This document shows, in pieces, positions 705-18,732 of a stretch of DNA of 18,732 nucleotides; position 1 is the stretch's first letter; every line of letters starts with the position of its first letter. Source of the stretch: Thalassiosira profunda (lineage: Eukaryota; Bacillariophyta; Thalassiosirophyceae; Thalassiosirales; Thalassiosiraceae). The position numbers were made by a program, and so were the translations under genes. The stretch spans positions 1 to 18,732 of the forward strand of contig JALLAP010000349.1 of the NCBI GenBank assembly GCA_036939355.1, given 5' to 3'. The notes under the pieces are model-generated. The model was not told the origin of the DNA and searched no databases. It saw only the letters and a program-made list of their open reading frames with translations.

Positions 705-3700
705 CTACCGCGAGCCGGCAGACTTTGGACTCGCTGAGCCGGCGGAACTCTGTGCGCACTGCCGTTGGACCGCGTTGTACGCCATCACGGGATGGGCCGC
801 GTACATGCGCGGAGGCGCCGGGATCGCCGGGCTCGACGCCGGTCCGGCGGGAGGGGCGCCGTACGCCGCCGCCAATTTCTCCTCCATCCGCAGGTGGAAG
901 TCGAAATCCCGCGCGACCATGACGGCGATGTCCGCCCTCCGCCGCCCGGCGGCGGCGTAGCTCTCGAACAGTACCAGGACGGTGTCGACGAGGCGGTCCT
1001 CTTCCGGGGTCCGGCGGTGGCCGCGGAGGAGGAGGAGGCGGAGGGAGAGGAGGCCGCGCAGCTGCTGTCCCAGCGGAGAGTTAGGGTCGGAGGGGAGGGT
1101 CTCGCCGAGGAGGAGGACGAGGGCGCGGATCTGTGCGTCCTTGGGGCTCACAGTAGGGTCGTGGGCGCACGTGCTCGCGGTGGCGGCGCTTTGGCAGCTT
1201 CCAAGGCTCGTCTGCCGGGTCGTGGCAGTCTGGGTCGTCGTCGACGACAGGACGGGGCTCCCCCTTGCGTCCGGCGGCGGAGCGTGCAGCGACGAGGCGC
1301 CCTGGGACTCGTCCCCGCCGCAGCCCGCGCCGTCGACATCGACAACGAGCTTCCACCTTGGGCACGGATTCAGCAGCCTCAGGTCGGCCGCCAGCCGCGC
1401 CAGCAGCCCCTCGTCCCGCGGACGATCGTGCCTCGAGTAGAGCCCCACCACCACCCGCCCGACGGTGGGGCTGTCCACCGGCACCGCCGCGGCGGTCCGG
1501 ACGCCGAACTGCGCGGCGCCCCCCCGGCGCTCGAAGCGGACCGCGGGGGCGTCGGCGAGGCGGCGCGCCCACTCGGGGCGGTTCGACGCGTGGGTTCGGC
1601 CCGGGAGGCCGGCGCCGGGGGCGAAGGAGAAGTGGGATGAGTGCTCCCCGAAGAGGGAGAGGGAGCGCCGGTCCTCCTGCGGGAGGGGCTCGCGCCGCAG
1701 GGCGTTGGAGGGGCTGGGACTCGCGAGGGTCGGGCTCGCGGTGCCATGGGTCATCGACGTCCTGAGGCGAGTTGGGGTAATAAGTACATACGTGAGTTGC
1801 CGCGAAAAAATGACAACGAACAAAATTGCGAGCTCGCCGCCTCGAACTCACCCCGCGGGAGGCTCGATCGGGACGACCTGCACGCCCATGGTGGCGCTGC
1901 CCCCGTGGCGCAGCCGGCCATCGTCGCCTTGACTGGGAACCCACACATCAATATGTTCGAAGGGCGCCCCGTTCCGCTCCACGTAGCTCGCGATCCCCGC
2001 CAAAAAGGGCGCGGCGTGGCGAAAGTTCGGCTCGCCGGAGCTCCAGCGGGCGTGCTCCTTGTCCTTCCCCGCCGCATTGACGACCGTGGCGCCTGCCTGG
2101 GCGGAAGCGGCGTGGGTCCCGGCCGAGTTGGCCACGGACCGCTCCACCGCGAGCTCGAACCCGTCCTTCGCCTCGGCGCTGACGAACACCCCCTCCTCCC
2201 GCGCCGCGGGATCGGCGTCCGTGGCCATCGCCTTCCCCATCAAGAACCTCCGCTTGGCCAGGCGGTGCCGCTCCGTCGCCAGGGCCAGGCGGCGCTCGGC
2301 CTCCTCGGCGCTCGCCAGATAGCGCCGTCCATCAAACTGAATGCCGAGGGAGGACAAACGGCGGGCGAGGTGGTCCCGCCACTCCCTCGCCATGTGGAAG
2401 GCGATCTCGCTCCGCTCGACCGGGTCGGGGACGCCGCGGACAAACTCTTGTTCCAACTTGCTCAGTTCTCTTGCGGCATCGACATCCCCAACACATCCCG
2501 CCTGGGGGCGAAAGTACCGCGTCGACAACTTGGCGTGCTTCATCTTCTTCGCCAGCCGGCTCTGCTTGCTCTTCAGCATGTTGGGCAGAAAGTCGTTCAA
2601 CTTCAGCCCCTCCCCCAACGGCAGGGCCCCCGCGAGGAAGTGACCGATGAGGGCGTCCCGGAAGGCGAGCTCGGCGTCGGTCCACCGCCCCGTGCGGGGG
2701 CGGGCGGGGTCGTAGCACGGGACGCTCCTTCGGGGGGGTTGGGCCCCGGCGTGGGAGGGGACGGCGGTGGGAAGGCCCAGGAGGCCGGGGGGGAGGTTCT
2801 CCCCGAGGCTGCCGTCCAGGGGACCGTTGAGGGAACCTTCGGGGGAGCCGACGGCCTCGCCGCTCGGCGGGCGCTTGCCTTGGGAACTCCCGCTCCCCAA
2901 GTGGGCGGGGTCGACCAGTCCCGAGCGGAGGAAGGCCTCCCGCGCCGCCGCCTGGGCGCGGTCCATGTCCCCGAAGGACAGGGGGAGGATCGCCATCCCC
3001 CCGGCGGGGCCGGCGCAGTGAGGACAACTTCTCACGCACACCTCGCGCCCTGCCTCGTGGGGCCCCTGCGGCGAGAGTCCATTGTGGTTGCGGACGTCCC
3101 GGCAGAGGGCGGAGAGGTCCAAACAGCGGGCGTGGTAGGCGCACCCCCTCCCGCAGCGGATTTGGACGTCGGCCCCGGGGAAGTGGCAGCGGGCGCACAC
3201 CACCTCGTCTTGGTTGGGGGCGGCTTGGGCCTTGGAGACTGCCATGGAGGCAGGGGAGGCCTGCGGGCTCGGGGAAGGACACCGGGGGGAGGGGGCCTGG
3301 CCCTGGAGAAATTGTTGGGTAGCGCGGGCTGCCTGGTGGATGTGCGCGTCCACTTGCGCGGGCAGGCTGTAGCCTTGTCCGCCGTGGCCGCAAGGAGCAG
3401 CCGCAGCGGGGTGGTCGAACCGCTGCCTCTTAGCCTCTGGGACCTCGAATCCATTGCGCTGGCTTGAAAATTGCGCGCGGGAATTGATTGGAGCCTGGGG
3501 AGCAACGCCGTGAAGATTTGGCTGCATTAGACCCTGGGCCCCAGCCTGGTGCGACAAAAATGGCTGGGATTTGGGGAGCAGCGCCGGCTTCGTGGGGACC
3601 GCGGGGACCGCGGAGGGGGCGGGCGTAACTTTATTTTCGCCCCGCGGCGCGGGGGACATCAGCGCCTCCGTGGTCTGGGAGGGGACGGCGATGGTGCTCG

Positions 3701-4268
3701 GCACGGCGAGGCTGCTCCCCTTGGCGGAAGCCGCGGCGTCGGCTTGGCCTTGGGTTATGGGCGACACCACACCCGCGCCCTCCTTCGCGTGTGTCACAGC
3801 CGCGGCCTGGGCGGTCGCCGCCCCGAGCGCCTCCCCCGCGAGCGCCTCCTGCGCGAACAGGTCCGCGCACAGCCGCTCCATGTCCACGCTCTCCATCGCC
3901 TTGGCCGCGAGCTGGGCGACGTCCCCGAAGTGGGAGAAGGCGTCGTCGTCGCCGTCGGCCTCGAAGGCGGGGGAGTCGGCGCCCGTTTGGCGGGATTCGT
4001 CCGTGGTCACCTCCGGGCTGGCCTCCGGGCTTGCCCCAACGTCCGCGCCAAGGCCGCCGGCGGGGCCGGGGCCGTCAAAATTGGTGCGGACGTCGAGCGT
4101 CGCCGACGCGGCGCTTGATGCACCGCCCTCGCCCGAAAGTGTAAGGGCACCTGCAAGGCCTCCTTCGGCCAGCTCCGCCGCCGGCAAATCAAAATTGGCG
4201 GCGGAGTCGAAGGGAGGGGATGGCGAGGCGCGAGGAGGCGAGGGCGGGCGGGGGGCGACGGCGGCCAT
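705..4268 (-). CDS. Putative nuclear regulator: zinc finger, Trp-helical domain, GAF-like domain
   Basis: Two exons, complement(join(705..1761,1852..4268)), about 1157 residues. The 90-bp intron begins GTGAGT and ends CTCAG, and a phase-2 junction keeps the frame exactly. The first in-frame ATG is at 4268, in good context (GCCGCCATGG). The frame stays open further upstream but without an ATG. The N-terminal third is Ala/Pro/Gly/Ser-rich, with an acidic-hydrophobic helical block that could be an activation segment. Near residues 357-420 lies a Cys/His cluster (CARC, then paired CxxxC and CPHC), resembling a PHD/RING-type zinc finger. Near 525-575 a GRWT start is followed by amphipathic helices and a basic KSKQSRLAKKMKH stretch, which may bind DNA. 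Exon 2 encodes a GAF-like domain (about 855-945, with FGVRTAAAVPV, GRVVVGLYSRHDR and WKLVVDV), then a helical tail with LLGETLPSDPNSPL and LLSLRLLLLRG. From memory this combination recurs in diatom proteins of unknown target. Transcriptional regulation is inference; the family identity was not searched. The locus is extremely GC-rich. Confidence 0.8.
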
Positions 4269-4771
4269 GGCGGCATGGGGTCCGATCCCGCGGGGGGATG
4301 GAGGGGCTGCAAGAGAGCAAGTTTGTGGGGGTGGGGGGTGCACCGTGCAAAAAGAGCGACAGGTGGAGGCGCAGCCGCGCGGTGGCAGATTTGATTTGCT
4401 GCAAATCTCGAACGTCGCAGCTGGTGATTGAGGTGTCGCGTCACGGAACGGTGTGGAATTCGACGGAATGTCCGTCGCTCGATGAGGCCTATGTGATTAA
4501 TCTAATTTAGCATCTGCGTATGGTATTTAGGACGCATCTGACGTTGGTCCTTCTAAACATTGTCGCTGCGATCTGAAGGCATCTCAAGATGCGGCACTCC
4601 GAAGCGACCTTTCGACTGACGTTTGCTTCGCTGGGAGAAATGACGAAATGGCCTGTCATCTCGGCGAAGGTTGTACGATCGTAGTTTGCGTTAGGGTTAA
4701 AGCAACACTAAGTAATGCTCGAAGAAAACAATTAACCCCAATGGATACGGGATCGATTCGAGACGCACGTC

Positions 4772-4802
4772 TCAATGGGTTCTCAGAGAACCCGCCCATT
4801 GA
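4772..4802. repeat. Hairpin / inverted repeat
   Basis: The core GGGTTCTC-A-GAGAACCC is a perfect 8-bp stem with a one-base centre. It sits inside a second pair, TCAATGGG and CCCATTGA, so two alternative foldings are possible. It lies about 500 bp upstream of the regulator start and about 400 bp past the MATE stop. It could be a dimer-binding operator, an RNA 3'-end hairpin of the MATE transcript, or the remnant of a small element. Confidence 0.6.
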
Positions 4803-4806
4803 AGTC

Positions 4807-4814
4807 TGACGTCA
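4807..4814. promoter_or_regulatory. TGACGTCA (CRE-like bZIP site)
   Basis: A perfect 8-bp palindromic CRE motif, five bases after the hairpin at 4772-4802 and about 540 bp upstream of the regulator ATG. CRE-type sites bind bZIP factors, and CO2/cAMP-responsive elements of related sequence are known in diatom carbonic anhydrase promoters. Function at this position is inference. Confidence 0.4.
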
Positions 4815-5206
4815 TTTTCGTTTGTGTCTCTCTTGACAGTGGCTGAATGATGTCTCCGCGCGAGCCGTTTCTGCCGAGTGGTGTTTGGACTGAGGAGACG
4901 TGAGACTGAGACAAAGGACTTTGCTTGATGTGAGATGAGAGACTCCAGACAACTCGGACAACAATTTGACGGGGATAAAAGGAAAAGGGTCGACCAAGCA
5001 GTCTGGAGGGCGTTGGGAGTACGATAAAGAAACGAAGTAACGGCTTGATACCTCAACTATGTTCCTGAGCCAGAGTAGATACAATCAGTTGGAAGAGGTT
5101 CAACAGCTGTATTGTGATACAACTGAGCTAACTCCTGGAGAACAACAGCCGACCATATCTTGATCTTCTAAATCTACCCAATAGCTAGCAAAGTTGCTTT
5201 CGATGC

Positions 5207-7251
5207 TCAATTGTCGACAGTCTCGTCTTCTTCCTCTCCTCCGCCCCGTTTCAACAAAAGCCTTCCGGCGAAACACGCCGACCGGAACAGTTGGAACAAT
5301 GCAAAGACGATCCAAACCTGCGTCACTGGCCCGCCTCCGGCCCGTATCCTCCTTAGCACCGGAGGCAAGAATGCCGTGCTGAGGAAGTACACACCGGCAA
5401 GGTACGTCAATTCTTTCCGCGCAATCAGCGTCCCCTCCGACACGGCCACTGGAGCGGTCAGAAAGGCGCCTGCGGCCAAGATTAACGCCAGGGGTTTGGC
5501 CGCCGCCTGAACAGCCGCGTCCTTCGTGACGATTCCCGGCGCGAACGCCACGATCGATCCCACCACCGACGCGATCAGCGCTCCCACCAATAGCCCGACC
5601 TTCTCCAGCCGCAGCACCAGCCGGTCCGCCGAAGCCCGCCACTCTTTTGGGTCTGCGCTCCTTCCCCGGGACGCCTCCGGCAACACCGAATACGAGGGCA
5701 GAAACGACTGGGCCGTCTGCGAGATGACCTCCAGGAACGGACTCGCGAAGAAGAAGAGCGAGAGCGCGATCTGGTGCGCGGCCAGCGTCGCCGGCTGGCC
5801 CGGCAGTCCGGCAGNTCGCGAAGAAGAAGAGCGAGAGCGCGATCTGGTGCGCGGCCAGCGTCGCCGGCTGGCCCGGCAGTCCGGCAGCCGCGTTGGTCAT
5901 GAATCCGAACGCCGAGATCTTTCCCAGAATGAGCGTGAGGACGGGCGCCGCGAATTTGAGGAAGGTCCGGCCGTTGATTTCGTCCGGGGGGCTGTTGGTG
6001 ATCCACCGCGGCAGCAATCCCAGCGACGAGCCCTTGGCCAGCAACTTTCGACGGGCCGGTCCGATCATGGCCACGGTCCCGGCCAGTTGCGCCAGAAGCG
6101 TTGCAATGGCCGCCCCTTTGAGACCCATGTGCAGGCGGTTCACCAGCAAAAAGTCACCGCTGATGTTCACCAGCGTGCTGTACAGAATGGAGATCAATGG
6201 CGTGACGCTGTCCTTGGCGCCCAGCAGCGCCGCCTGGAGGACGCCCCCGAGGAGGGACGTGGGCATCGAAAGCGCCCGGATCTGGACGTACTCGTGCGCG
6301 GCGTCGAGCAGTCCGGGCGAGGCGGCGGCCTCCGGGCCTTTGGTTGTGATTTGCAATGATGGATTGTCAATGGTTGCCCATACAAAATGATGTGCAAAAG
6401 AGTGCACTCCAGACAGAGCAAATGCAAAGATGTTTTGGCCCGGCCAAGAATAGCTCCGCAGAAAGATACATAGACAACGGCGCCTCGCAAACCCCTTTGC
6501 AATGAGCTCGCTTCAACGCCACCCAGACATCTTCACTTTAACCAAACATCACAACATGCATCAACAAAGATCGGCACTCACCCACATACAGCGCAATCAG
6601 CGGCCGCGCCACCGCCAGCAGAAAGACCATCAGCCCCACCCCCGAATACAGGCTGATCTTCGCCGCCGTCCGCACCACCCCCTCTCCGGGCCGCTCGTCG
6701 TTCCCCGCCCGATTCTTCTTCTCGCTCGTCCCCCGGGCCAGACTGCTCGCAAAAAGATTCGTCGTGGCGACATTGAGGAACGCAAAGAGGTACAAACTGC
6801 CGTCGATGAAGGTCGTGGCGGGGCCGAGGGCGGCGAGCTGCGCGGCGCTCCCGGCGCCCCCGGCGGCGTTGGCCGCGGCGGAGAGGCCGACGAAGGAGGT
6901 GTCGACCAGGGACAGGAGGGGCCCGGAGATCCAGAGGGCGAGGCAGGGGAAGTAGAATTTGAATAGCGATAAATTGGTGGGGGGATCGGGCGGCGGGATG
7001 GATGTGGTGGCGCCGGCGCGGAGCTGCGTTAGCGTGTGCTTTGCGTGGCGGTTGGGAATGCTTGCGCCGCGTTTGAAGGAGCTGCTGTTGATGATGGGTG
7101 CACCGTCCGATGATGATCGGCGGCAAGTGCCGAGGCCATCAGATTTGAGCGGCCTCGCGAGGCGGGAGGGATCGAGGCCGAAGGCCCGGCTCTCGGTGAG
7201 CAGGGCCGCCAGGAAGATGGCCGCAGCGGAGGCGCGGGCGCGGGGCGTCAT
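5207..7251 (-). CDS. Plastid-targeted MATE-family transporter (frame broken by assembly duplication)
   Basis: Exons complement(join(5207..6337,6582..7251)). The 244-bp intron starts GTGAGT and ends CAAAG, with a phase-1 junction. MATE proteins are polytopic cation- or proton-coupled exporters of organic compounds. The sequence resembles the plant chloroplast EDS5/DTX45-46 type, with [12 protein letters not shown] early, [14 protein letters not shown], an NISGDFLLV segment, and a [20 protein letters not shown] run near the C-terminal half. The start at 7251 is preferred because it gives a signal peptide ([18 protein letters not shown]) ending SRA before FG, the diatom plastid ASAFAP-like site, followed by a basic Ser-rich transit region. 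An upstream in-frame ATG at 7311 is possible but weakens this leader. A 72-bp exact repeat (5743-5814 and 5816-5887) flanking an N at 5815 shifts the frame. Removing one copy and the N gives a continuous protein of about 575 residues. The substrate is unknown. Confidence 0.88.
5743..5887. repeat. 72-bp exact direct duplication around a single N
   Basis: Bases 5743-5814 and 5816-5887 are identical, with one ambiguous base at 5815. The repeat lies within the coding part of MATE exon 2. Dropping 73 bases (one copy plus the N) restores the transporter frame across a conserved segment, so this is best read as a failed overlap at a contig join rather than a biological duplication. Confidence 0.9.
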
Positions 7252-7336
7252 GGCGGTGGGTTGGCGTCGTTGGTGTGACGGCCGCGCGGAAGCTTTGCCC
7301 AAAAGCTCCATCCACCATGCTACGATGATATCATGA

Positions 7337-7378
7337 CTAGCTTCGGCCTCCGGCCTCAGCTAGCGGCGCTCCGCGCCG
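7337..7378. repeat. Double foldback element
   Basis: Two adjacent foldbacks, both with a TCC loop. The first is CTAGC-TTC-GGCC-TCC-GGCC-TCA-GCTAG (7337-7363). The second is CGGCGC-TCC-GCGCCG (7364-7378), a perfect 6-bp stem. This regular structure looks like part of a dispersed repeat or the end of a small non-autonomous element. No target-site duplication could be defined. Confidence 0.5.
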
Positions 7379-7448
7379 TCAGACTTATTCGCTTGCCCTT
7401 TTTGCGCCAATATTTGTCTCTCCACGAAGCTTGTATTGGACTTCGCAT

Positions 7449-7456
7449 TGACGTCA
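7449..7456. promoter_or_regulatory. TGACGTCA (CRE-like bZIP site)
   Basis: A second perfect CRE palindrome, about 200 bp upstream of the MATE start and 370 bp upstream of the secreted-protein start. It could serve either gene. Regulatory use is inference from the motif. Confidence 0.4.
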
Positions 7457-7489
7457 TTAACCTGCTAACTTTCTCTGTTTAGTACCGGT

Positions 7490-7558
7490 GGGCAATATTG
7501 TACAGGACGTATCCGGCACTCAAAGGGCAGTATTGCATGTCGTAAGGGCAGTATTACA
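7490..7558 (+). promoter_or_regulatory. Three direct copies of GGGCARTATTRYA
   Basis: Copies at 7490-7502, 7525-7537 and 7546-7558 differ at only a few positions, with start-to-start spacing of 35 and 21 bp. They lie 260-330 bp upstream of the secreted Cys-rich gene. Repetition of a 13-bp motif in a promoter-sized gap suggests clustered binding sites. The binding factor is unknown. Confidence 0.4.
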
Positions 7559-7819
7559 GACAGACGGACGGACAGAATTTGCCTGGTACTCAATTAGATG
7601 GCTGACGTCGAGGTGCTGCAAGCTTCTCTCTGCAAAGAAGTTGCAACTTTTCACCCGTTCACCTTTCCCGACGAAGCTTGAATGAGGCAAATGATTGGGG
7701 CTGATCTTTGTGGGCAGATTGAGGCAGTTGTTTGCGCATCAAAGTGTCAGAGCGGTTATGAGCCCAAAGACTTCGACTTCGCATTCAGTTGCAACAACAA
7801 CAAGGGCAACGGCGGAACG

Positions 7820-9558
7820 ATGAAGCAGCTCTCCCTGGTGATCCTTGCTGCGGCCGCCGCGGCTGTGGCGGGGGCGGAGGTGGCCGAGGGTGGAGTTCTT
7901 GACGGCGGCCGGATGCTGCAGGGAAATTCCGGCAAAAACAACGGTGCGTCTAGGGAGTGCGTGCGCGTGCGCCATGTGTTGAAGTTGTTCAGGTGCAACG
8001 TCAACGGCCCGGCAGGGCTGTCGACGAACCACATGGTGGCGGGCTCATCTATCTCATCATTTTAATTGGTATGCTTGTTGCAGGCAACGGAAACGGGAAC
8101 GGTGGAGGCGGAAACGGCAACGGTGAGTATTTGACATGTCATGTGCGCACTTTTATTCTGATTGCAAAACATCGTATCTGACGTCCGCCTCGTTGCTGGA
8201 ACGCACTCAGGAAATGGCAACGGAAACAGCGGCAACGGTGGAGGGGGAAATGGAAATGGTGAGTGACTTGGATGCGATAAGTATGTGCACAACCTTGCAA
8301 AATGTACCCACGTCTGACGACGCGCTCCGTTCTGGAATATGATGTGTTTCAGGAGGAAACGGAAATGGAAACAGCGGCGGCGGAGGAAACAGCGGAGGCG
8401 GGGGAAATACTGGTGAGCGAGATGACATTCCTCATGAGAGGTCTGGAATAGCATGCACTCGTCAATTGGCACCTTCGGCTGATTGCGATGCTTTATTCTG
8501 CCCTTCGACTTATTTTGCTCACAGGCCCCGACACCGAGGATGGCACGGAGGATTCCGGCAGCCAAGGCCAAGGCGGGGGAGGCAACTCCAACCAAGGCGG
8601 GGGCAACCCGAACAAGCCCGACAAGCCGCAGGGTGGCCAAGGCGGAGGCGGAGGTGGGGGTGGCGGTAACCCCAGCTCTGGTGGGGGAGAAGTCTGCCCC
8701 GCAGAAACCGAAACGTGCGACGAGGGCGGCGTCCAAATGTGCCGGCTCCGGAACGCCCGCAAGGAAATCGTGGCGAACTTCTGCGTCCGCCAGGCCAAGC
8801 AGCAGTCGATGCTCCTCGCCCGGGGAGGGGCGTGCGGGTGCTGCGATTTTGCCAATCCTGTCACTGGCGGAAAGGCCAACACTGGAGCCTGCCCCACAGG
8901 GACGTGCGACGCGGGCGACGACTGCGAGAAGGAGAACGACGACGGCACCACCACGCCTGGATCGTACATGTGCCGGAAGAAGGGGCAGGGCGGGAGGACG
9001 CAAACTATGTGCGTCGCCAAGGAGCAGGTGCTGCGCATGCAGGGACGGGGGGCCACGTGCGGGTGCTGCGATGGCGGGTGCCCGCCGGGGCCCTGCTCGG
9101 TCGAGGGGCCCGCGGTGTCTTGCTCCCTTGACGATGGCGAAACGTCCGAGGATGGCGGTGGCAGGTTCCTCCAGGAGGCGACGAGCGGCTACTACATGTG
9201 CCGATCTATCGGCAACCCCAAGCGGGGGCGGTACAAGACGCAGTGCGTCGCGGACGAGGAGACGTTCAACCGGCAGCTCAAGGGAGATCAGTGCGGGTGC
9301 TGCGATGGCGAGGGGGGCGCTTCCGCAAGTTGCCCGACCGTATGCGTTGGAAACACGTGCGTGAAAGAGATCGACGATGGAGAGACCACCGAAGAAACGT
9401 CCACTGACAGCGGTGCGACCAGGTCCCTGCAGGAGACGCCAACGACCGAGACGGGATCCTTGATGTGCATGCGGAACGGACGGACCATGTGCGTGGTGGG
9501 AGAGGAGACGATCATCCAGAGACAGCTGAATGGCCAGGCCACGTGTGGGCCATGCTAG
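7820..9558 (+). CDS. Secreted Gly/Asn-rich, Cys-module protein with RXL motifs (candidate cell-wall protein)
   Basis: Five exons, join(7820..7943,8084..8122,8211..8258,8353..8412,8525..9558), 434 residues. All four introns (140, 88, 94, 112 bp) are phase 1, with donors GTGCGT, GTGAGT, GTGAGT, GTGAGC and acceptors ending CAG. Exons 2-4 (39, 48, 60 nt) encode almost only Gly and Asn, with a few Ser and Thr. Residues 1-19 form a signal peptide (MKQLSLVILAAAAAAVAGA). RXL motifs occur at 31-33 (RML, just before the Gly-Asn block), 304-306 (RFL) and 390-392 (RSL), each followed by Gln. A Gly-rich linker leads to four Cys modules from residue 148. Each has an MCR/MCM core, a (T/Q)xCV step and a closing CGCC at 194, 269 and 347, or CGPC at the C-terminus (431-434). 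There is no transmembrane segment after the leader. Signal peptide, RXL cleavage motif and low-complexity block recall diatom silaffin/cingulin/silicanin-type proteins; that role is inference and the exact family is not identified. The start at 7820 is chosen because it opens the leader. Confidence 0.85.
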
Positions 9559-9653
9559 TGAGAGTCCGGGCCGCAAGCGACATGGCACAGGGCACAGGGC
9601 GGGGTTTCCAGATAACTGGGGCAAAATGTTGATGTTGCATCTATAGGTAATGA
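9559..9653. other. Short convergent intergenic gap
   Basis: Only 95 bp separate the stop codons of the secreted Cys-rich gene (plus) and the unknown membrane protein gene (minus). Both 3' UTRs must be very short or overlap. No clear polyadenylation signal was recognised. Confidence 0.6.
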
Positions 9654-11926
9654 TTATTCATGTGTTTGCGTTGCTTTCGTGTCAACCCATGTGACATTCG
9701 AGGCCATCGTTCCGAGGAATGATACCGCAAATGCAATCGAACAGGCGGTCGCCATTCCCCAGCGATCGTTGGAGATCCAGATGGACAATGGCAGTGGCAA
9801 ATACGCCGTGCTCAAGACGCGCCGCTGCAGTATCACTTCGGTAGATAGGCCAGCTGCAAGGTAGGCGGCTCCGTTGACCATTGCAGACCGCTCCATCGAA
9901 GGGTATGCTGCCTCGATAAAATCCCCACAGAGAATGTTCGTCTTCAAAGCTTGCCAGGAGAGCGATGCAATACCACCGCCACTCTTCTTCTCTTTTTGCC
10001 CAGACCTCTCGCCAGAAGGAGGGAGAAGCAAGTTTGCAGCGCAGATTCCCGCACACACCATAACCAACGTGCACTCGTCAATCGCCCCGAGTAAACTTGC
10101 TCCCTCGCCGGTACTCGCGGAGTCCATTTCCAACAAGATTGCCGGGAGGAAGAGTGAGTGATATAGGCCAACCTTTGAGCCGTAAACAAAGAAGCAGCCG
10201 AAGAGAAACCCAAGACCTGTCGAAATTGGCAAGGGATCTGCATACGGCGAACAACCTCCTTCTGGCACGTTGAAACTCAGTATGGTTTGAAGAAATGTGG
10301 GAGTGGGTGGCATGAGCTTCGCCCACCGCTCCTGCATTCGTTGCAATTCAGGTAAGAGGCCCGTCTCAAGCGCACGCGGCAGCAGATCAGAGATTGATAG
10401 TGGGAGGTCGCTCCCAAGAGGTATCACTCTTCTCCAACGAAGCAGGCTTCTGACGGCGCCTGTTGCTAGGCTCAAACTGCGTGCAATGCCCGATAGATGC
10501 ATCGCCATCCCAACGAGCATGCCAACTCCTCCGCCACAGAGTATATTCGTCATGGTGGCCGTCACGTGGTAGCGATTGCAGAGTCGAGAAGTTTTCGACA
10601 GAACTACAGGGACCAGTGCGCCAGAAACTAAGCCGGCAAGTGCACTGCCGCCATTGTAATGTGTTGAAACGGCATCCTGCGATGCCGACGCCGATGTAAG
10701 CAACCCAGCTATTGCCGCAGACTGGCTTGGCTTTTGATCAGTTCTATGGTACAAGAATTAAAGATTGCAAAAGCGCAGTGGCTTACCATGAGCAGCGTGC
10801 TTTGGTCTTCCTTTGGTTGATTCGAGACGGATGCGCAGCGGGAGGTGGCCGCCAAAATGCAGCACGTGGTCCCCGGCACAAGATGCCGGAGAGCAAATTT
10901 GATCATTGATGTTGCCGAATGCTCCCTCTGCTCGTCGCCTTGGGCGGAGGAGCACGTATCTTCCATTTCGCTACCTTCCCAAGCATCGATCACGCGAAGG
11001 GCAAGACAAACAAAGAGAAAAGTCGGGAGGGCCACCTCCAGAATTGATTTCAGCGTGGGCACGGGTGACTCTGACACCGCGCTCGTCTGTGCCTCCAATT
11101 GCGTTTCACCCAATACTCCACCACCCGATGAAACGTTATTCTCATCATATGTCATTCCCCATTCCTCGGCTAGCCCCCTCGCCCACCCCCTCGCCTTGGT
11201 GAGCGTCGTGGAGGCCACGCTGCCCCCGGAGTTGCCCACGATTCTCAGATCGTACAGCGAGGCGATGCGGCTGAGGGACGTGCCCCCCGAGCCAACGATG
11301 GGAAGGTCCACGCCGTCCAATGGATTGCACGCACCGAGAGATGCAGCGTGAATGGCGGTGGGCTCGCTCGACATTGAAATCATGGCGGATATCGAAGGTG
11401 CACTGCTGTTTGGCCAATTGCTCCGGGAGATGGTCTCGCTTAGAGACACGTCCATATATTGCGCAAGATTGTTGATTTGTGTCAGCGGTCCTTCCTTGAC
11501 CAGAGTTACGCGGAACGGTTGTCCATTGATAGCCTTCCAATCACCCGTTGCTCCCTGCTCGAACCCGACCGCATACAGGGCTGCTGTAGGCCCGGGAGGG
11601 GCCCCTATGCCGCCTCCAGTAGGACGCCAATCATCTTCCTTCACAGAGTCAAAGCCCGATCCATCGCAGAGCGATACGAAGATGGCATGTGATAGTCCTA
11701 CGCACACTCGTCGGCGCCGCGCGTCTCCTCCATCTTTGCCATCATCCCCACCGCCATCAGAGGGCACATCATCACCACATGGTGTGTCATCACCTACACG
11801 AAGCAGCTCCCTATGAACGGTCGTCAACAATTCGACCGGATTGGTGTGTCCCAGCGTCGCGGTGCCGCCCCCCGACGATCCGACGAGGGCGACGGAGTGG
11901 CGTTCGGGCTCGGAGGCGGCCATCAT
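9654..11926 (-). CDS. Unknown protein: soluble Gly-loop domain plus polytopic membrane domain
   Basis: Two exons. The first runs 11926 to 10787; the second starts at 10730 or 10721 and ends at 9654. The donor is GTAAGC at 10786. Both AG choices (AAAG or CCAG) keep phase 0, giving a 56- or 65-bp intron and about 738 or 735 residues. Two adjacent ATGs (11926 and 11923) open the frame. The frame continues upstream only from a non-ATG codon. The N-terminal ~290 residues look soluble and contain Gly-rich turns: GSSGGGTATLGH near the start, then GSGGTSLSR and GNSGGSVA, the kind of loops that bind phosphate or nucleotides. The C-terminal part has about eight hydrophobic segments, including VALPTFLFVCLALRVI, ILCGGGVGMLVGMAMHLSG, TGLGFLFGCFFVYG and CSIAFAVSFLGTMA. 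I do not recognise the family and assign no function. It diverges from the sirtuin gene and converges on the secreted Cys-rich gene. Confidence 0.75.
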
Positions 11927-12230
11927 GCTATCGGCGGGGCGGATGAAGTGATGTGAGTCACGGGTTGCAATACGGCGAGTCACTAGTCGTCAGAAACAAC
12001 AGACAAGCATCAACCTGCGCTCTCAACCAACGCCGCCGCCAGTAGTGTGAACGCGCCTCGTTGCGGCGACGATGGGAAGAACTGTCCCTCCATTCCGGCG
12101 GTGCAGGTGTAGCTGTAAATCTGGGCGGGTTGTTGCTGGGCGCGTGTGAATGAGGCAGTGAGACAGTGTAGATACAAGTTGCAACGTATCGGAAAGAATC
12201 AAAGGGGCTGAAATTTGCAACACCCGAGAT
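11927..12230. promoter_or_regulatory. Divergent promoter region
   Basis: 304 bp lie between the start codons of the unknown membrane protein (minus) and the sirtuin (plus), so this gap must hold both 5' UTRs and promoters. No strong repeat or recognisable core element was seen. Confidence 0.45.
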
Positions 12231-14591
12231 ATGAGCGACAACGAGGGTCAGGGAGGCGGCGGAGGAGGCGCCAGCGACGACTGCAACAGCTGTGTTGCTG
12301 AGAATTGCCCCCAGCCGCAGCGATCCACGGACGCGGCGTCGGACGCAGAGGATGCACAATCACCAACCTCAGACTCCACGCAATGGCCGTCCGCCCCGTC
12401 TTCCCCCGCCTCCCAGGACAACGGCATGAACCGCCTCCAGGACATCCTCGACCGCGCCCTCCGCGACCCCTTCTCCTCCCACCCCGAGGTCTCCGCGCAC
12501 TTGAAGTCCAACGTCGGAATGTACTGCCGACTGGCCGCCGAGAAGATATACGAGGCGGACGTGTTGCTGGTGGTGACGGGCGCGGGGTTCTCGGCGGATA
12601 GTGGATTGGCGACGTACCTCGACGTGGCGGATATCGAGGCGTACCGGAGCAAGGGGTGGAGGTACCGGGACTTGTGCCGGCCGCCCGCCTTTGGCGATTT
12701 TGACGACTTGAATTGCGGTGGCGACGGGGAGGGAGAGGTGAGGGAAGAGGGCGATGGCGTTGGGGGCGATGGAGAGAATGACGAAAGCAAACGGCAAGAT
12801 AGCAACACGATGGAACCGTACAGAATTGAAGGCGGAGGTGGCATTGACAATGAGAAGGGGAGCGAGAGCAACAGCTATCAGGAGAAATTGCACCCCGAAC
12901 GCCCTTCTGACGAACACGACATTCACCACCCGCAGTACTTTTACGGCTTTTGGGGACAATGCAGCAACGATTACCGAAGGGTCAGTCCGCACGATGGCTA
13001 CGACATCATTGCGCGATGGGGGCGGGACAAGAACGTTTGTGCAACTGGAACCGGTGGTAATACAGCCACAAACGAAAGGGCGGAGTCTGAAGCAGCGCAT
13101 AATATCAGAAGGATCACGCAGATGCTGGAGATGGGCGAAGATGGAAGCGAAAGCAGCCACGACAGCAGCTCTTTCTTTCGCTTCAAGGAAGACGACGAGG
13201 ACGAGCCCTACTACGTTTCGCCGACCGAGCGGGCCGGAGCCTTTTTTGTGTTTACATCCAACGTCGACGCGCATTCCTTCGACGTGTTCAAATCGCACGA
13301 GATTCGGGAGTGCCACGGCAACGTCGAGATGTGGCAGTGCCACAACTTTGCGTGCGGCACCAATGCTACGGTGATGCACGGTGGCTCGCTGGATGGGAGT
13401 GATTGCAACGGCGATAACGATCGCGATAACGATCGCAACATAGGCGACAAAACAGAGCACGAGGAGAAGTGGCAACGTAGGTTGTGGCGGCTTCCGATGA
13501 ATCACCACTTCACTGTCGACTGCAACACAATGCAAGCACCTCGTGAGAAAACGACGATGGATACTGAGTCCAGTGAAAGTGCTTCTCCTGCCTCAAAGCG
13601 CAGAAAGTCATCGGTGTCCGAGCGCGACGGCGAAAACAGTGATACAGCTACTGCACTGGGCGGGCTGATGGAGGATACGCTGCGGAATCACCTTGCGAAG
13701 GAGGCTGAGCAAAGCCAACAATGTGAAAGTGACGCTTTAGACGGCAATGCCGAGACCGGTGCTCCTGCGCATGTAGGCGACGTGCACGGGAGACCCCGCC
13801 TCTTCCCTCTTCGGCATATGCAACCACCGACTGGAACTGCGAGCAACGGAGAAATTGATGCCGAAGCACAAAATTATTTCCTCCCCATTGCCGCAAATGA
13901 AAACTGGCCAAGGTGCCCACGCTGTCAGGAGGCTGCTCGCCCAGCAGTGCTAATGTTCGATGATCTAGACTGGGTGTACAACCTGAAACAGGAGCAACGC
14001 TGGCAGCGTTGGACTCAGAGCTTGTTAAAACTATGCAAATGGAGGGGCCGCGGGATCGAGGCGATTGACAACGAGAGCGTGAGCACTGCATCGGGTGACA
14101 ACATCAGTGAAAAGGGCTGGGAGGACGTTTCAGACCCCTCGACTGAGAAAAAGACGGATCCGATAGTAGACACCACGTCGCCTGCTGCCGCGGAGAAACG
14201 TGAAGGAGTCGCTGCGGAACAATGCATTGCCGCAAAGACTGATCAGGCAGTGGACGTTACTATGCCGACAGAGCCACAAGACGTGGCCGAGACAGAAGAT
14301 CCCGACAAACCAAAGCGACCACTGAAGGTGGCCATCCTCGAAATTGGGTGTGGATACAACGTGCCGACTTGCCGAGTGATCGCCGAGCGGTTGACTGGAG
14401 AGCTTACTGTTCGCGGCGGAGATGCAACTTTGATACGCATCAATCCCACGCATCCCGAGTCAGACGACCACGGGGCCGACGACTGCATCATAAGCATTAT
14501 GGAGAAGGGTTTGGCGGCTCTGAAGCTCATTGACGGTTGCTATCGTGAGTTTCGTGAGTTGTCAGGGAAATCATCCTCTTCAACAGAATGA
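12231..14591 (+). CDS. Sir2-family NAD-dependent deacylase-like protein with large acidic insertions
   Basis: Single exon, 786 residues, roughly two to three times a minimal Sir2 core. Sirtuins cleave NAD to deacylate lysines or transfer ADP-ribose. Visible core motifs: GAGFSADSGL at 116-125 (NAD-binding loop), FYGFWG and PHDGY near 236-256, FTSNVDAH at 340-347 (usual TQNVD), and ECHGN with the catalytic-type His at 361. Two likely zinc pairs follow, C369/C374 and CPRC at 562-565, then ARPAVLMFDD, EIGCG near 704 and IRINPTHPES near 740. This order matches a bacterial-type branch of Sir2 proteins recalled as SGLPDF / FYGHR / FTSNVDG / ECHGS / RPNILMF / EIGAG / RINP. In place of the usual DFRG after the NAD loop it reads ATYLD, so acyl-substrate or NAD handling may differ. 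Acidic, Ser-rich low-complexity insertions (about 160-230, 265-330, 385-555, 600-690) split the core, including the two zinc pairs. No leader is evident. Activity is inference. Confidence 0.85.
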   Translation: MSDNEGQGGGGGGASDDCNSCVAENCPQPQRSTDAASDAEDAQSPTSDSTQWPSAPSSPASQDNGMNRLQDILDRALRDPFSSHPEVSAHLKSNVGMYCRLAAEKIYEADVLLVVTGAGFSADSGLATYLDVADIEAYRSKGWRYRDLCRPPAFGDFDDLNCGGDGEGEVREEGDGVGGDGENDESKRQDSNTMEPYRIEGGGGIDNEKGSESNSYQEKLHPERPSDEHDIHHPQYFYGFWGQCSNDYRRVSPHDGYDIIARWGRDKNVCATGTGGNTATNERAESEAAHNIRRITQMLEMGEDGSESSHDSSSFFRFKEDDEDEPYYVSPTERAGAFFVFTSNVDAHSFDVFKSHEIRECHGNVEMWQCHNFACGTNATVMHGGSLDGSDCNGDNDRDNDRNIGDKTEHEEKWQRRLWRLPMNHHFTVDCNTMQAPREKTTMDTESSESASPASKRRKSSVSERDGENSDTATALGGLMEDTLRNHLAKEAEQSQQCESDALDGNAETGAPAHVGDVHGRPRLFPLRHMQPPTGTASNGEIDAEAQNYFLPIAANENWPRCPRCQEAARPAVLMFDDLDWVYNLKQEQRWQRWTQSLLKLCKWRGRGIEAIDNESVSTASGDNISEKGWEDVSDPSTEKKTDPIVDTTSPAAAEKREGVAAEQCIAAKTDQAVDVTMPTEPQDVAETEDPDKPKRPLKVAILEIGCGYNVPTCRVIAERLTGELTVRGGDATLIRINPTHPESDDHGADDCIISIMEKGLAALKLIDGCYREFRELSGKSSSSTE

Positions 14592-14701
14592 TTCAAAGAC
14601 AGACGCAGAATTCGCAGGAAGCCAGTGAAACAAATACTCTGATTGTACACCATCATTACTTGGCCCCTAAACCAGAGGTCCTCTGCCCTAAACAGACGAA
14701 T
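14592..14701. other. Short convergent intergenic gap
   Basis: 110 bp separate the stop codons of the sirtuin (plus) and the transhydrogenase (minus). 3' UTRs are necessarily short or overlapping. Confidence 0.6.
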
Positions 14702-17700
14702 CTAGCGCTCCTTTCGAAACATGAGGAGCATTCGATACGATACGGCAAAGCCTCCAAATACATTGATTGCCGCAACGCTCGTCGCAATGCAGCCAAGGAC
14801 GCTTGCGGCGGATCCCTTCTCGAGCGAGACCATGAGCATCCCTCCCAGTATCACCACGCCCGACAGAGCGTTGCTCACGCTCATCAACGGACTGAACAGC
14901 GACGGGTCGACGCCCCAGATCAGATAGTAGCCGAGGAATCCGGCCAGAATGAAGTATCCCAGCTGTTGCGCGAAGGTAACGGGCGCATACGCAGCGACAA
15001 TCCCAAAGAATACGGCCACGACGACGAGTGCCACGAACTCGCCCAGCGGAGCCAAGTCGAGGACTCTCTTCGAGAGAATCGATGGCTTCTGTTCGAGCTC
15101 GACAGCTTCCAACGTGGCTGCCGGTGACGGGGCTGCGTGAACGCTGGTTATCATGACGCTGGATGGAGGAGGGAACGTGATCTCGCCCTCGTGCACGCAC
15201 GTCATCCCTCGAATCACCTGATTGGACATGTCGATGTCCAGGCGTTTGTCCTTGCAGAGGATGTTGAAGAGATTGACGATGTTGTTGCTGAACATCGTCG
15301 ACGCCTGCCATGCCATGGCTTGGTTCTGCAAGTAGAATCGAAGAGCGTAAGCTTTTGCGAAGCGAAAGAGAACGAATGAGGGTATCAGCTGCTTACCGTC
15401 ATGTCGCCGCCAATGATTGTGACTCCATTGTGCACGTAGGTCTCTCCCTTTTTCGTGAGAGCGCAGTTGCCGCCCGTAGCCCCGGCGAGGTCCACGATCA
15501 CACTGCCTGCTTTCATCTCGTCTACGGCCTCCTCTTTTATGAGAACAGGCGCCTTTCGTCCCGGAATGGCTGCCGTTGTGATGATGATATCAACGTCCTT
15601 CGCCTGCTCCTTGAACATTTCCATTTCCTTCTCGATGAACTCGTGGCTCATGACCTTGGCATAGCCCGAGGCATCGGCGCCGTCCTCGCCAAAGTTGAGA
15701 ACGAGGAACTCTCCTCCCAGCGATTCGACCTGCTCTTTGGTCTCGAGCCGCGTGTCGAACGCCCGCACGATGGCGCCCATATTGCGTCCAACGGAGATCG
15801 CAGCCAGGCCAGCAACTCCAACGCCAACAACGAGGATCTTCGATGGTGGGAAGTTGCCGGCAGCAGTACTCTCGTGGTTCATGAAGCGTTGGTAGACGCT
15901 GGCGGCCTCCACGACGGCTCGGTAACCGGCGATCTTCGCCTGGCTAGAAAGCACATCGAGATTCTGCGCCTTGGAAATGCGCGGAATGGCATCCACCGCC
16001 AGCAGATTGACGCCCGCAGTCTTTGCCTTCTCCATCAGCTCCTTCCCAGCATCCGTTCGAGGCCCGAGGAAGCTAATAAGACTCTTTCCTTTGCCGAGCA
16101 TGTCGATCTCATGCTTGCCAGTGACCGGGTGATGCGTCGGTTCGCGGATCTTGACTACCAAATCCGACGCGTCGAAGACCTCTTCAGCCGAAACAAGTAT
16201 CTTTGCTCCGGCATCCTCGTATTGTCTGTTGGAAAACGCCCCGCCGTCTCCAGCCCCGGACTCCACCACCACCTGGATCCCGGCCTTCAATAGTTGTTTG
16301 GCGCCGTCCGGGACAATCGCCACCTTGCGCTCGTCGTCACCGATCTCCTTCGTCACTCCAACGGTGAAATATGCGTCCGCCTGAAGAGTCGGAATCTCGG
16401 CAATGAACTTGTCAGTTGCCTTTTGCGCCACTTCCACCGGCGTCTCGACATCCAATGAGGGGTGTGTTGCAGCAGTGTCGTCGTTGCTCTCCGTTTTCGC
16501 CACTGTCTCGCCCATGAGATTCACGAGTTTGTCGACCATCTCCTTCGCGTCTCCGAGGTACATACAGTTGTTGTCCTTGAAGAAGAGAGGATTGTCAACT
16601 CCGGCATATCCCACGCGAAGGCTGCGCTTCATGACGATGGTCTGCTTCGCCTTCCAGACCTGGAGGACGGGCATGCCAGCGATGGGCGAAGTTGGGTCGT
16701 CCTCTGCTCCGGGGTTTATGATGTCGTTCGCGCCGCAGCAGAGAACAACGTCCGTTTCAGGAAAGTCCGGGTTGATGTCGTCCATGACCAGCGTAATATC
16801 GTAGGGAACCTGCGCCTCCGCGAGGAGGACGTTCATGTGTCCGGGCCTAAAGAGCGATTCGCTCAATGAGACGAAATGCTTGCACAAGATGTGCCACGAA
16901 CGGTATCAAACTCACATTCGCCCAGCGACGGGATGGATCGCAAATCGCACCTTGACTCCTCGTGAACGAAGACGGGTCGTCAGCTCTTTGATGGAGTGCT
17001 GCGCTCTCGCTACCGCCATTCCATAGCCAGGCACGATGATGACACTCCGCGCCGAGGTCAGCGCCTGCACCACTTCCTCTGCTGCAATCCGCTTCGCCAC
17101 GCCCTGCTCCTTTGGTCCGTCGCCGGCACCTACTTTCGACGACTTGGTGGCGCCGTCCCCAAACCCTCCCATCAACACGTTCTTCACGCTCCGGTTCATG
17201 GCGTTGCACATGACGAGCGTCAGAATCAGCCCGCTGCACCCCACGAAGGCACCCGCGACGACCAGCGCCGTGTTCGAGAGCATGAACCCCGCAGCGGATG
17301 TGCTGAATCCAGACAGGCTGTTGAGGAAGCTGATGGATACGGGCATGTCGCCACCGCCTGTACGAGTTGTAAGGGTGAGTAGCAGATCGAACTTTGCTGC
17401 ACTAGCCACAAGACATCTCAAAACTCGACGCTCACCAATGGCCATGACGGCCGTTCCTCCATACACGCAAGCGATGAGGCCGACGATGGCCAAGAACGCG
17501 ATGCCCTCCTGCCGGTTGTTCCACCCGTCCATAAACGACAGGGCCCCAAACACCACCATCAGCGCCGCCATAATGGCAGATGAGATAGCCCGGAACGGGA
17601 TGATGCGCGGCTTGCTGGCGATCCACCCGTGCAGCTTGCACACGGCCACGCAGCTGCCGGCGAACGTCATCATCCCGATGACGATGCTCAGCACAAGCGC

Positions 17701-18260
17701 TATGCCCTGCACCCACAGCATGGCGTCCGTCTGCTCCACCTTCACCTCCCCGTTCCGCACGAGATACGTCGCCGTCGGGTCGAGATATAGTCCGTACCCC
17801 GTGATCGCGGCGGCCAGCCCGCCGAATCCGTTGTACGCCCCCACCATCTCCGGCAGTCCCGTCATGGCCACTGTGTACGCGCTGCCGAGGCCGACGAGGG
17901 CGCCGGGGGCCATGGCCACGGCGAGCAGCCACGTCCCGGAGCCGTAGGTGTAGGTGGCGTCGGCCCAATAGGCGGCGATGAGGGCGGCCATGCCGGCTAT
18001 GCCGTAGATCATGCCCATGCGGGCGGTGGGCACCTGTTCATATTGCACATAAGATGTGAGTGTCAGGCATAAGATGTGAGTGGGCAGTGGCGTATTGTAT
18101 GCGCACGGTTATCCATCATCCAAAAGACGCCGCGACGCACCTTGGCGAGGCCCTTGAGGCAGAGGATGAAGCACGTCAGTCCGACGACGACCACGGTCTG
18201 CAGCCATGCCTCGTCGATCCACAGGGGATCGCCGCTCTCGTTCATGACGTGCTCCTGCAT
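14702..18260 (-). CDS. Proton-translocating NAD(P) transhydrogenase, beta-alpha fused order
   Basis: Exons complement(join(14702..15325,15397..16846,16916..17357,17436..18033,18141..18260)), 1077 residues. The introns are 107, 78, 69 and 71 bp, all GT-AG, with phases 0, 1, 2 and 0 matching. The enzyme couples proton movement to hydride transfer from NADH to NADP+. The order here is beta membrane part (about 1-290, with [24 protein letters not shown] and GFML), NADP(H) domain dIII (about 335-500: [11 protein letters not shown] near 350, [46 protein letters not shown]), a linker of about 45 residues, NAD(H) domain dI (from about 545: [40 protein letters not shown]), then the alpha membrane part (871-1077). 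Each junction falls inside a conserved motif, which supports the splicing. Mitochondrial or plastid inner membrane is likely. The 18260 start gives no leader, and a possible extra 5' exon (18311-18448) is listed separately. It converges on the sirtuin gene and diverges from the QueH-like gene. Confidence 0.93.
18048..18082. repeat. 15-bp direct repeat inside transhydrogenase intron 1
   Basis: CATAAGATGTGAGTG occurs at 18048-18062 and 18068-18082, a 20-bp period, within the 107-bp intron near its 3' end. On the coding strand each copy reads CACTCACATCTTATG. It is probably a recent small duplication. Confidence 0.7.
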
Positions 18261-18310
18261 CGTTTGTGTAGTTGCAATCTACAATACTCGATGCCTTGAT
18301 GATCTTGCAC

Positions 18311-18448
18311 GTGTTTGCTTTTATGAAGGCAATAGCTGCCGACGACAGGATGATCCAAAGATCGCTGTTCGCTTCCAATCGATCTGAAACTTCGAGTGTG
18401 ACCTTTGCCGAGGAGGAGCGTGGAGCGAGGTGATTGCGGGGTTCTCAT
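18311..18448 (-). CDS. Possible 5' exon of the transhydrogenase (targeting sequence)
   Basis: An ATG at 18448 opens a 46-codon segment that starts MRTPQSPRSTLLLGKGHTRSF, rich in Arg, Ser and Thr with no acidic residue in its first 20 or more positions, as in a mitochondrial presequence. A donor GTGCAAG at 18310 and the acceptor GATGCAG ending at 18255 would join it in phase 0 to GAG CAC GTC of the next exon through a 56-bp intron, giving about 1121 residues in total. The donor is not a strong consensus. The simpler model starts at 18260. Confidence 0.35.
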
Positions 18449-18514
18449 TCTTCTGCCGTTGTGAAACTCGCTCGATCGCCACCACTCAAAACCAAGCAGA
18501 TTGATAGGCGGCTG
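18449..18514. promoter_or_regulatory. Short divergent gap upstream of the QueH-like gene
   Basis: Only 66 bp (or about 250 bp if the transhydrogenase starts at 18260) lie between the diverging starts. The gap must include promoter elements for both genes. No specific site was recognised. Confidence 0.35.
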
Positions 18515-18732
18515 ATGAGGAAGGTCGACATGGCCAGCGGCTCCCTGGCCTACAGCGAGGGGGGCAAGCTCCCGCCCACCGCACCGGAATGGGCGGTGGC
18601 GGCGTCCCAAAGGCTAAAAAAGCGGCGCGAGGAAGGCCATCAATCCCTCTGCGCCCCTCCACCTGGCGTCACCCGGGTGCTCCTCCACAGTTGCTGCGCA
18701 CCGTGCAGCGGGGCGATGGTCGAGGAGATGTG
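18515..18732 (+). CDS. queH: QueH-like epoxyqueuosine reductase, N-terminal fragment
   Basis: An open frame from the ATG at 18515 (a second in-frame ATG is at 18530) runs off the right edge. An in-frame TAG at 18506 bounds it upstream. After about 55 residues it reads VLLHSCCAPCSGAMVEEM, the hallmark start of the QueH (DUF208) family, in which the CC and CxxC cysteines bind the metal centre used to reduce epoxyqueuosine to queuosine in tRNA. The remaining domain, with further conserved cysteines, lies outside the window. The N-terminal extension (Pro, Lys and Arg-rich, with SQRLKKRREEGHQ) is not present in typical bacterial QueH and does not look like a classical plastid leader. The name is confident from the motif; function in a eukaryote is inference. 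Only 72 residues are visible. Confidence 0.8.
   Translation, partial: MRKVDMASGSLAYSEGGKLPPTAPEWAVAASQRLKKRREEGHQSLCAPPPGVTRVLLHSCCAPCSGAMVEEM

Follow-up and report, generated by a model that had tools for sequence, protein, structure and literature searches.

The window analysed here is the whole of contig JALLAP010000349.1 of Thalassiosira profunda, 18,732 nt (C348 in a 21.8 Mb assembly of 1366 contigs), and on its plus strand, at 7820-9558, lies a gene of five exons separated by four GT-AG introns, all of phase 1. Exon 1 (7820-7943, 124 nt) carries the start codon, the hydrophobic segment MKQLSLVILAAAAAAVAGA and RMLQGNSGKNN, and ends in phase 1. Intron 1 (7944-8083, 140 nt, GTGCGT...GCAG) is followed by three short exons that are each symmetric 1-1, namely exon 2 (8084-8122, 39 nt), exon 3 (8211-8258, 48 nt) and exon 4 (8353-8412, 60 nt). 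Between them lie intron 2 (8123-8210, 88 nt) and intron 3 (8259-8352, 94 nt), which resemble each other and both run GTGAGT...TCAG; intron 3 has a further GT 4 nt downstream of its donor. Intron 4 (8413-8524, 112 nt, GTGAGC...ACAG) leads into exon 5 (8525-9558, 1034 nt including the stop), which holds the remaining Gly-rich linker and, at about 8689-9555, a set of Cys-rich repeats whose number by eye is four. With a slash at the junction, the donors read CG/GT or TG/GT and the acceptors AG/GC or AG/GA. The sequence-only reading had proposed just these exon lengths and phases, and they are confirmed in the sequence. Its description of the three cassette exons as nearly pure Gly/Asn also holds on translation, with Gly or Asn at 13/13 residues in exon 2, 15/16 in exon 3 and 17/20 in exon 4.

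Spliced in this way, the window copy gives a frame of 434 amino acids with no internal stop. That any cassette could be skipped without loss of frame is true by arithmetic, all three having flanking introns of equal phase and a length that is a multiple of three, in this copy and in the second copy described below. No intron has a length that is a multiple of three, so retention of any one would shift the frame, with a stop at codon 82, 74, 73 or 176 for introns 1, 2, 3 and 4 respectively. An open frame of 531 codons also runs antisense to the gene at 8062-9657 of the minus strand, across introns 2-4, and is probably a by-product of G+C-rich codons.

The encoded protein starts with a signal-peptide-like stretch (by eye), continues through the Gly/Asn blocks and the Gly-rich linker, and ends in the four Cys-rich repeats, all of them in one long exon. 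It is probably secreted, and from the secretion signal and the Cys-repeat structure we would guess at a cell-surface or wall-associated role. The only protein found was the hypothetical protein ACHAXT_003512 of T. profunda, with 98% identity over the Cys-rich part. Searches with a widening alignment added six further relatives (P0002-P0007) from ENA records; their contigs measure 935-2394 bases and are probably metagenomic. All six carry the Cys repeat of the window protein, by eye roughly C..C..C.K.DD..YMC..RTMCV..EE...Q.KG.A.CGCC in tandem, and a block resembling exons 2-4 occurs in none of them. No Pfam family scored above cut-off for the window protein or for P0003-P0005, the four proteins scanned out of a set that also held P0002, P0006 and P0007; P0003 gave weak matches, including DUF1609, below the cut-offs. 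A profile search of the PDB returned none of 177635 sequences at E <= 1, and the AlphaFold models (mean pLDDT 34.8 and 44.4) were too poor for use. Within its own genome the protein has convincing matches on C348 and C714 only. The match on C258 (E 3.6e-6, 60 residues, in the Gly-rich linker) was judged to be low-complexity, one on C733 reached E 0.07, and a pattern match on C115 was read and judged unrelated (a match on C516 was left out of this reading). Among viral contigs, 38 pattern matches yielded none that could be confirmed.

Contig C714 of the same assembly carries a colinear second copy of the locus (L004), which aligns to about 6212-17930 of the window, with the longer blocks about 83-93% identical; over window 16600-18732 the identity to C714 is 93-98%. 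A further match lies on a third contig, C1049, with 91% identity over 416 nt in the right-hand part of the window (16600 onwards), while window 1000-6200 has only short matches of 71-75% in the assembly. One segment of C258 likewise has no second copy of high identity, only a partial match of 70% on C182. The C714 copy may be either an allele or a segmental duplicate of the window copy. For T. profunda a genome size of 41 Mb is reported (PMC11309476), and in another account 26% of BUSCO genes are duplicated and the ploidy is estimated as diploid (PMC12159174). Upstream of the gene, window 7262-7600 and C714 1038-1337 show no blastn match to one another although their flanks align at about 83-89%; one copy may have undergone an insertion or replacement here, in what is likely the promoter region.

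The neighbouring genes were named by eye. A gene resembling NAD(P) transhydrogenase lies at 14700-18100 of the minus strand, and a gene for a Sir2-like protein, with no Pfam match, at 12162-14591 of the plus strand. At 5743-5892 a 73-nt unit is present in about two copies that match at 97%, with a single N at 5815. The N interrupts a minus-strand open frame that looks like a MATE-type transporter, and a Pfam scan of the frame at 6538-7359 of this MATE-like stretch gave no match. On two other contigs, in L003 (709) and L008 (881), one N with repeated sequence around it was likewise seen by eye, and in all three places the feature looks like an artefact of an assembly gap.

Comparison of the two copies bears directly on the reading frame. 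All four introns are kept at the same places in C714, as is the start ATG of exon 1, with exons of 118/33/54/45/1022 nt and introns of 142/88/84/92 nt. Relative to the window, the net change in exon length is -6, -6, +6, -15 and -12 nt, in each case a multiple of three, and that in intron length +2, 0, -10 and -20 nt. Counted as single gaps, 8/10 exonic gaps against 4/16 intronic ones are multiples of three (Fisher p = 0.014, a value that depends on the alignment); the two exceptions in exons, of 1 and 4 nt, both fall in exon 1, where the net difference is -6. All six substitutions between the copies in exons 2-4 lie at codon position 3, and over codons 42-92 dN is 0.063 against a dS of 0.344.

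The last two of these figures argue against the view that the Gly/Asn reading is an artefact of a wrong frame or gene and that the public gene model, which starts MNGRCREIP..., is correct. In favour of that view, C714 spliced with the proposed sites, apart from another start and an intron 3 donor 4 nt downstream, yields the public protein P0001 with all but 2 of 398 residues matching. In C714 the intron 3 donor of the model is the position that corresponds to the additional GT of the window copy. The public annotation therefore gives no confirmation of the frame of exons 1-3, since its start and its intron 3 donor both differ. However, the ATG with which the model begins is absent from the window copy, so we take the public N-terminus to be a mis-prediction, and the model also requires a donor that switches the frame; the substitutions fall on the third positions of the Gly/Asn frame. 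We consider it extremely unlikely that the public model is the correct one.

The shared phase of the introns is less informative than it may seem. In exons 2-4, 28 of the 33 GG boundaries are in phase 1, with three in phase 2 and two in phase 0, so that four phase-1 introns in a row would be expected about half the time if introns sat at G/G ((28/33)^4). In 18 eukaryotes, proto-mitochondrial genes are described as having phases 0, 1 and 2 in a ratio of 5:3:2, which is said there to fit other genes (PMC2834692); under that ratio the chance of four phase-1 introns is near 1%. Composition suffices to explain the equal phase because the G/G boundaries are mostly of phase 1. Equal intron phase is thus weak evidence for exon duplication here, being mostly forced by glycine codons, and the locus serves mainly as a warning that codon composition alone puts most G/G junctions of Gly-rich exons in phase 1.

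For traces of duplication we aligned the introns with each other in each of the six possible pairings, for the window copy and for C714, which are not independent of each other, and used as controls dinucleotide shuffles (n = 2000) and real genomic segments of like G+C (n = 1500). In the window copy the local score of introns 2 and 3 is 37 untrimmed, reached by 3/2000 shuffles, and 34 with the splice signals trimmed, reached by 6/2000. Against genomic segments the trimmed local score of 34 was reached by 5/1500 in the window, and the corresponding 36 in C714 by 0/1500; the global test gave a modest 31/1500 in the window and 0/1500 in C714. The match is based on about 90 nt, and the alignment is continuous from exon 2/3 through intron 2/3. 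Thus the intron-against-intron alignment that had been suggested as a source of duplication traces raised one pair above the controls, and left the other five weak, null or discordant between the copies. Cassettes 2 and 3 are probably one old tandem duplicate, and such a duplication would be older than the split of the two copies, because both carry it.

The sequence-only reading had gone further and seen the exon-intron units as likely products of repeated local duplication of one ancestral cassette. This idea is supported for the pair of cassettes 2 and 3 only, the relation of introns 1 and 4 to the others being unconvincing. An origin of all three cassettes, perhaps with intron 1 too, from one exon-intron unit would gain from the likeness of introns 2 and 3, from the global score of introns 3 and 4 (reached by 75/1500 control segments in the window and 19/1500 in C714), from that of introns 2 and 4 in the window (75/1500 global, 68/1500 local) and from GGAAACAGCGGC, which exons 3 and 4 have in common. 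The copies are discordant, however, the scores of introns 2 and 4 in C714 being reached by 346/1500 (global) and 675/1500 (local) controls, and the local score of introns 3 and 4 by 422/1500 in the window and 899/1500 in C714. Low complexity alone, moreover, predicts similarity between the exons. In the local test the pairs that include intron 1 score much as the controls do, with counts of 249/1500 (window) and 950/1500 (C714) for introns 1 and 3, 1144/1500 and 1022/1500 for introns 1 and 4, and 1416/1500 and 567/1500 for introns 1 and 2; the corresponding global counts are 60 and 336, 264 and 343, and 970 and 213. We regard repeated duplication as unlikely. The opposite account, in which each intron was gained independently at G/G in a Gly-rich exon and the similarity of introns 2 and 3 is chance, draws on the phase that composition predicts (28/33 boundaries), on the lack of a firm relation of introns 1 and 4 to the rest, and on intron gain being a known process for which several mechanisms are proposed (PMC3443670). 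Set against it are the handful of real segments, 5/1500 and 0/1500, that reach the score of introns 2 and 3, and the absence from every junction of AGGT, which would be expected from gain by AGGT tandem duplication; seven AGGT occur within 7820-9558, none of them at a splice junction. We hold independent gain to be quite unlikely. A dispersed intron repeat (introner) was rejected as a source, since a search of the 21.8 Mb assembly, of a kind that passes over simple repeats and very frequent words, matched 7600-8524 at E <= 0.01 only to itself and to C714.

Between the copies the Gly/Asn spacer does differ in length, exons 2-4 adding up to 147 nt in the window copy and to 132 nt in C714. The differences fall inside exons as multiples of a codon, and the proposed tuning of length by the number of tandem exons is not seen in this pair, there being three cassettes in both copies. 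Gain and loss of whole codons inside exons would be what a repeat prone to slippage commonly shows. A different means of setting length would be splicing, with exons 2-4 facultative and isoforms of 0 to 3 blocks. Such a use would fit the symmetric 1-1 form and 3n length that all three exons have in the window and in C714; in Phaeodactylum tricornutum about 20% of genes are reported to undergo exon skipping (PMC5859163), and human UBC has isoforms that differ in repeat number in frame (PMC10809524). The same account of P. tricornutum, however, has intron retention as commoner than skipping, at about 24% of genes, and the donors of the cassette exons (GTGAGT, GTGAGT and GTGAGC) are consensus-like and give no hint of weak splicing, while a dual-specific AGGT site is present at none of the eight junctions. 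Splicing-tuned length is in our judgement distinctly improbable, although its odds and those of our preferred reading given below are not mutually exclusive. If skipping does occur, the gene would be a unicellular case of a low-complexity spacer whose length is set by splicing, and two diverged copies in one assembly would offer a ready comparison. More speculative still is a modular spacer in which a variable number of exons 2-4 would let one gene make a ladder of secreted Cys-rich proteins that differ in spacer length, and in which the introns would further restrain slippage, the repeat being split into pieces of at most 60 nt.

Gly-Asn arrays elsewhere in the genome were sought with a pattern of three GN units and up to one mismatch. 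This gave 26 forward and 6 reverse matches, a number not above control, since the same pattern written backward gave 20 and 8. Four of the places outside C348 and C714 were read, as distinct from the one-mismatch matches on C492, C531, C538, C954, C1202 and C1237, which were left out. Exact arrays on C10, C883 and C1125 lie in open frames and are intron-free within the array, and the one-mismatch match on C94 has no clear frame. On the strength of the three exact arrays read, all uncut, the idea of Gly-Asn arrays as general intron magnets was rejected, and introns are not needed to hold such arrays. The array on C10 (L040, G000:C10:18204-18307), an uninterrupted stretch of about 100 nt inside an open frame of 1006 codons, would make a useful control for slippage.

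Taken together, we favour, with a probability of roughly two in three, an ordinary intron-containing diatom gene whose spacer lies in micro-exons, with one old cassette duplication, an intron phase given by composition and a length that drifts by codons. This reading builds on the exon map, the introns conserved between the copies, the length change in codon units and the similarity of introns 2 and 3. The product would be a probably secreted protein with a signal peptide, a Gly/Asn-rich spacer and four Cys-rich repeats. Either exon 2 with intron 2 or exon 3 with intron 3 was probably copied from the other in an old tandem duplication, and introns 1 and 4 give no evidence of an origin shared with the rest. 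The phase would be 1 throughout mainly since nearly all G/G junctions of GGN-rich sequence fall between the first and second bases of a Gly codon. Constitutive joining of the cassette exons is most likely, and the spacer would drift in length as whole codons are gained or lost within exons, with replication slippage as the most likely cause. The original observation is therefore real and mostly ordinary; its duplication idea is half right and its argument from phase is weak.

Tandemly duplicated symmetric (1-1) exons are a known general kind, and the present gene is like them in its frame-neutral exons and in the likeness of introns 2 and 3 as well as of exons 2 and 3. It differs in that just one duplicate pair is supported and in that the phase is largely forced by Gly codons. 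Tropoelastin, too, is a Gly-rich low-complexity protein made from cassette exons that share one phase; the diatom gene has this in common with it, but belongs to another protein and another lineage, and alternative splicing is here hypothetical. In human polyubiquitin, UBC, ubiquitin monomers are described as spliced in or out, the repeat number being set by splicing at dual-specific AGGT sites (PMC10809524). The repeat units of both genes are bounded by splice sites and removable in frame, but the diatom gene, for which such removal is hypothetical, lacks AGGT at its junctions and has true introns between the blocks. Introns can also be gained when genomic AGGT is duplicated in tandem (PMC3443670, PMC2891723), a process in which, as here, coding sequence close to introns is duplicated locally; AGGT, however, stands at neither end of our four introns, and it is an existing exon-intron unit that seems to have been copied.
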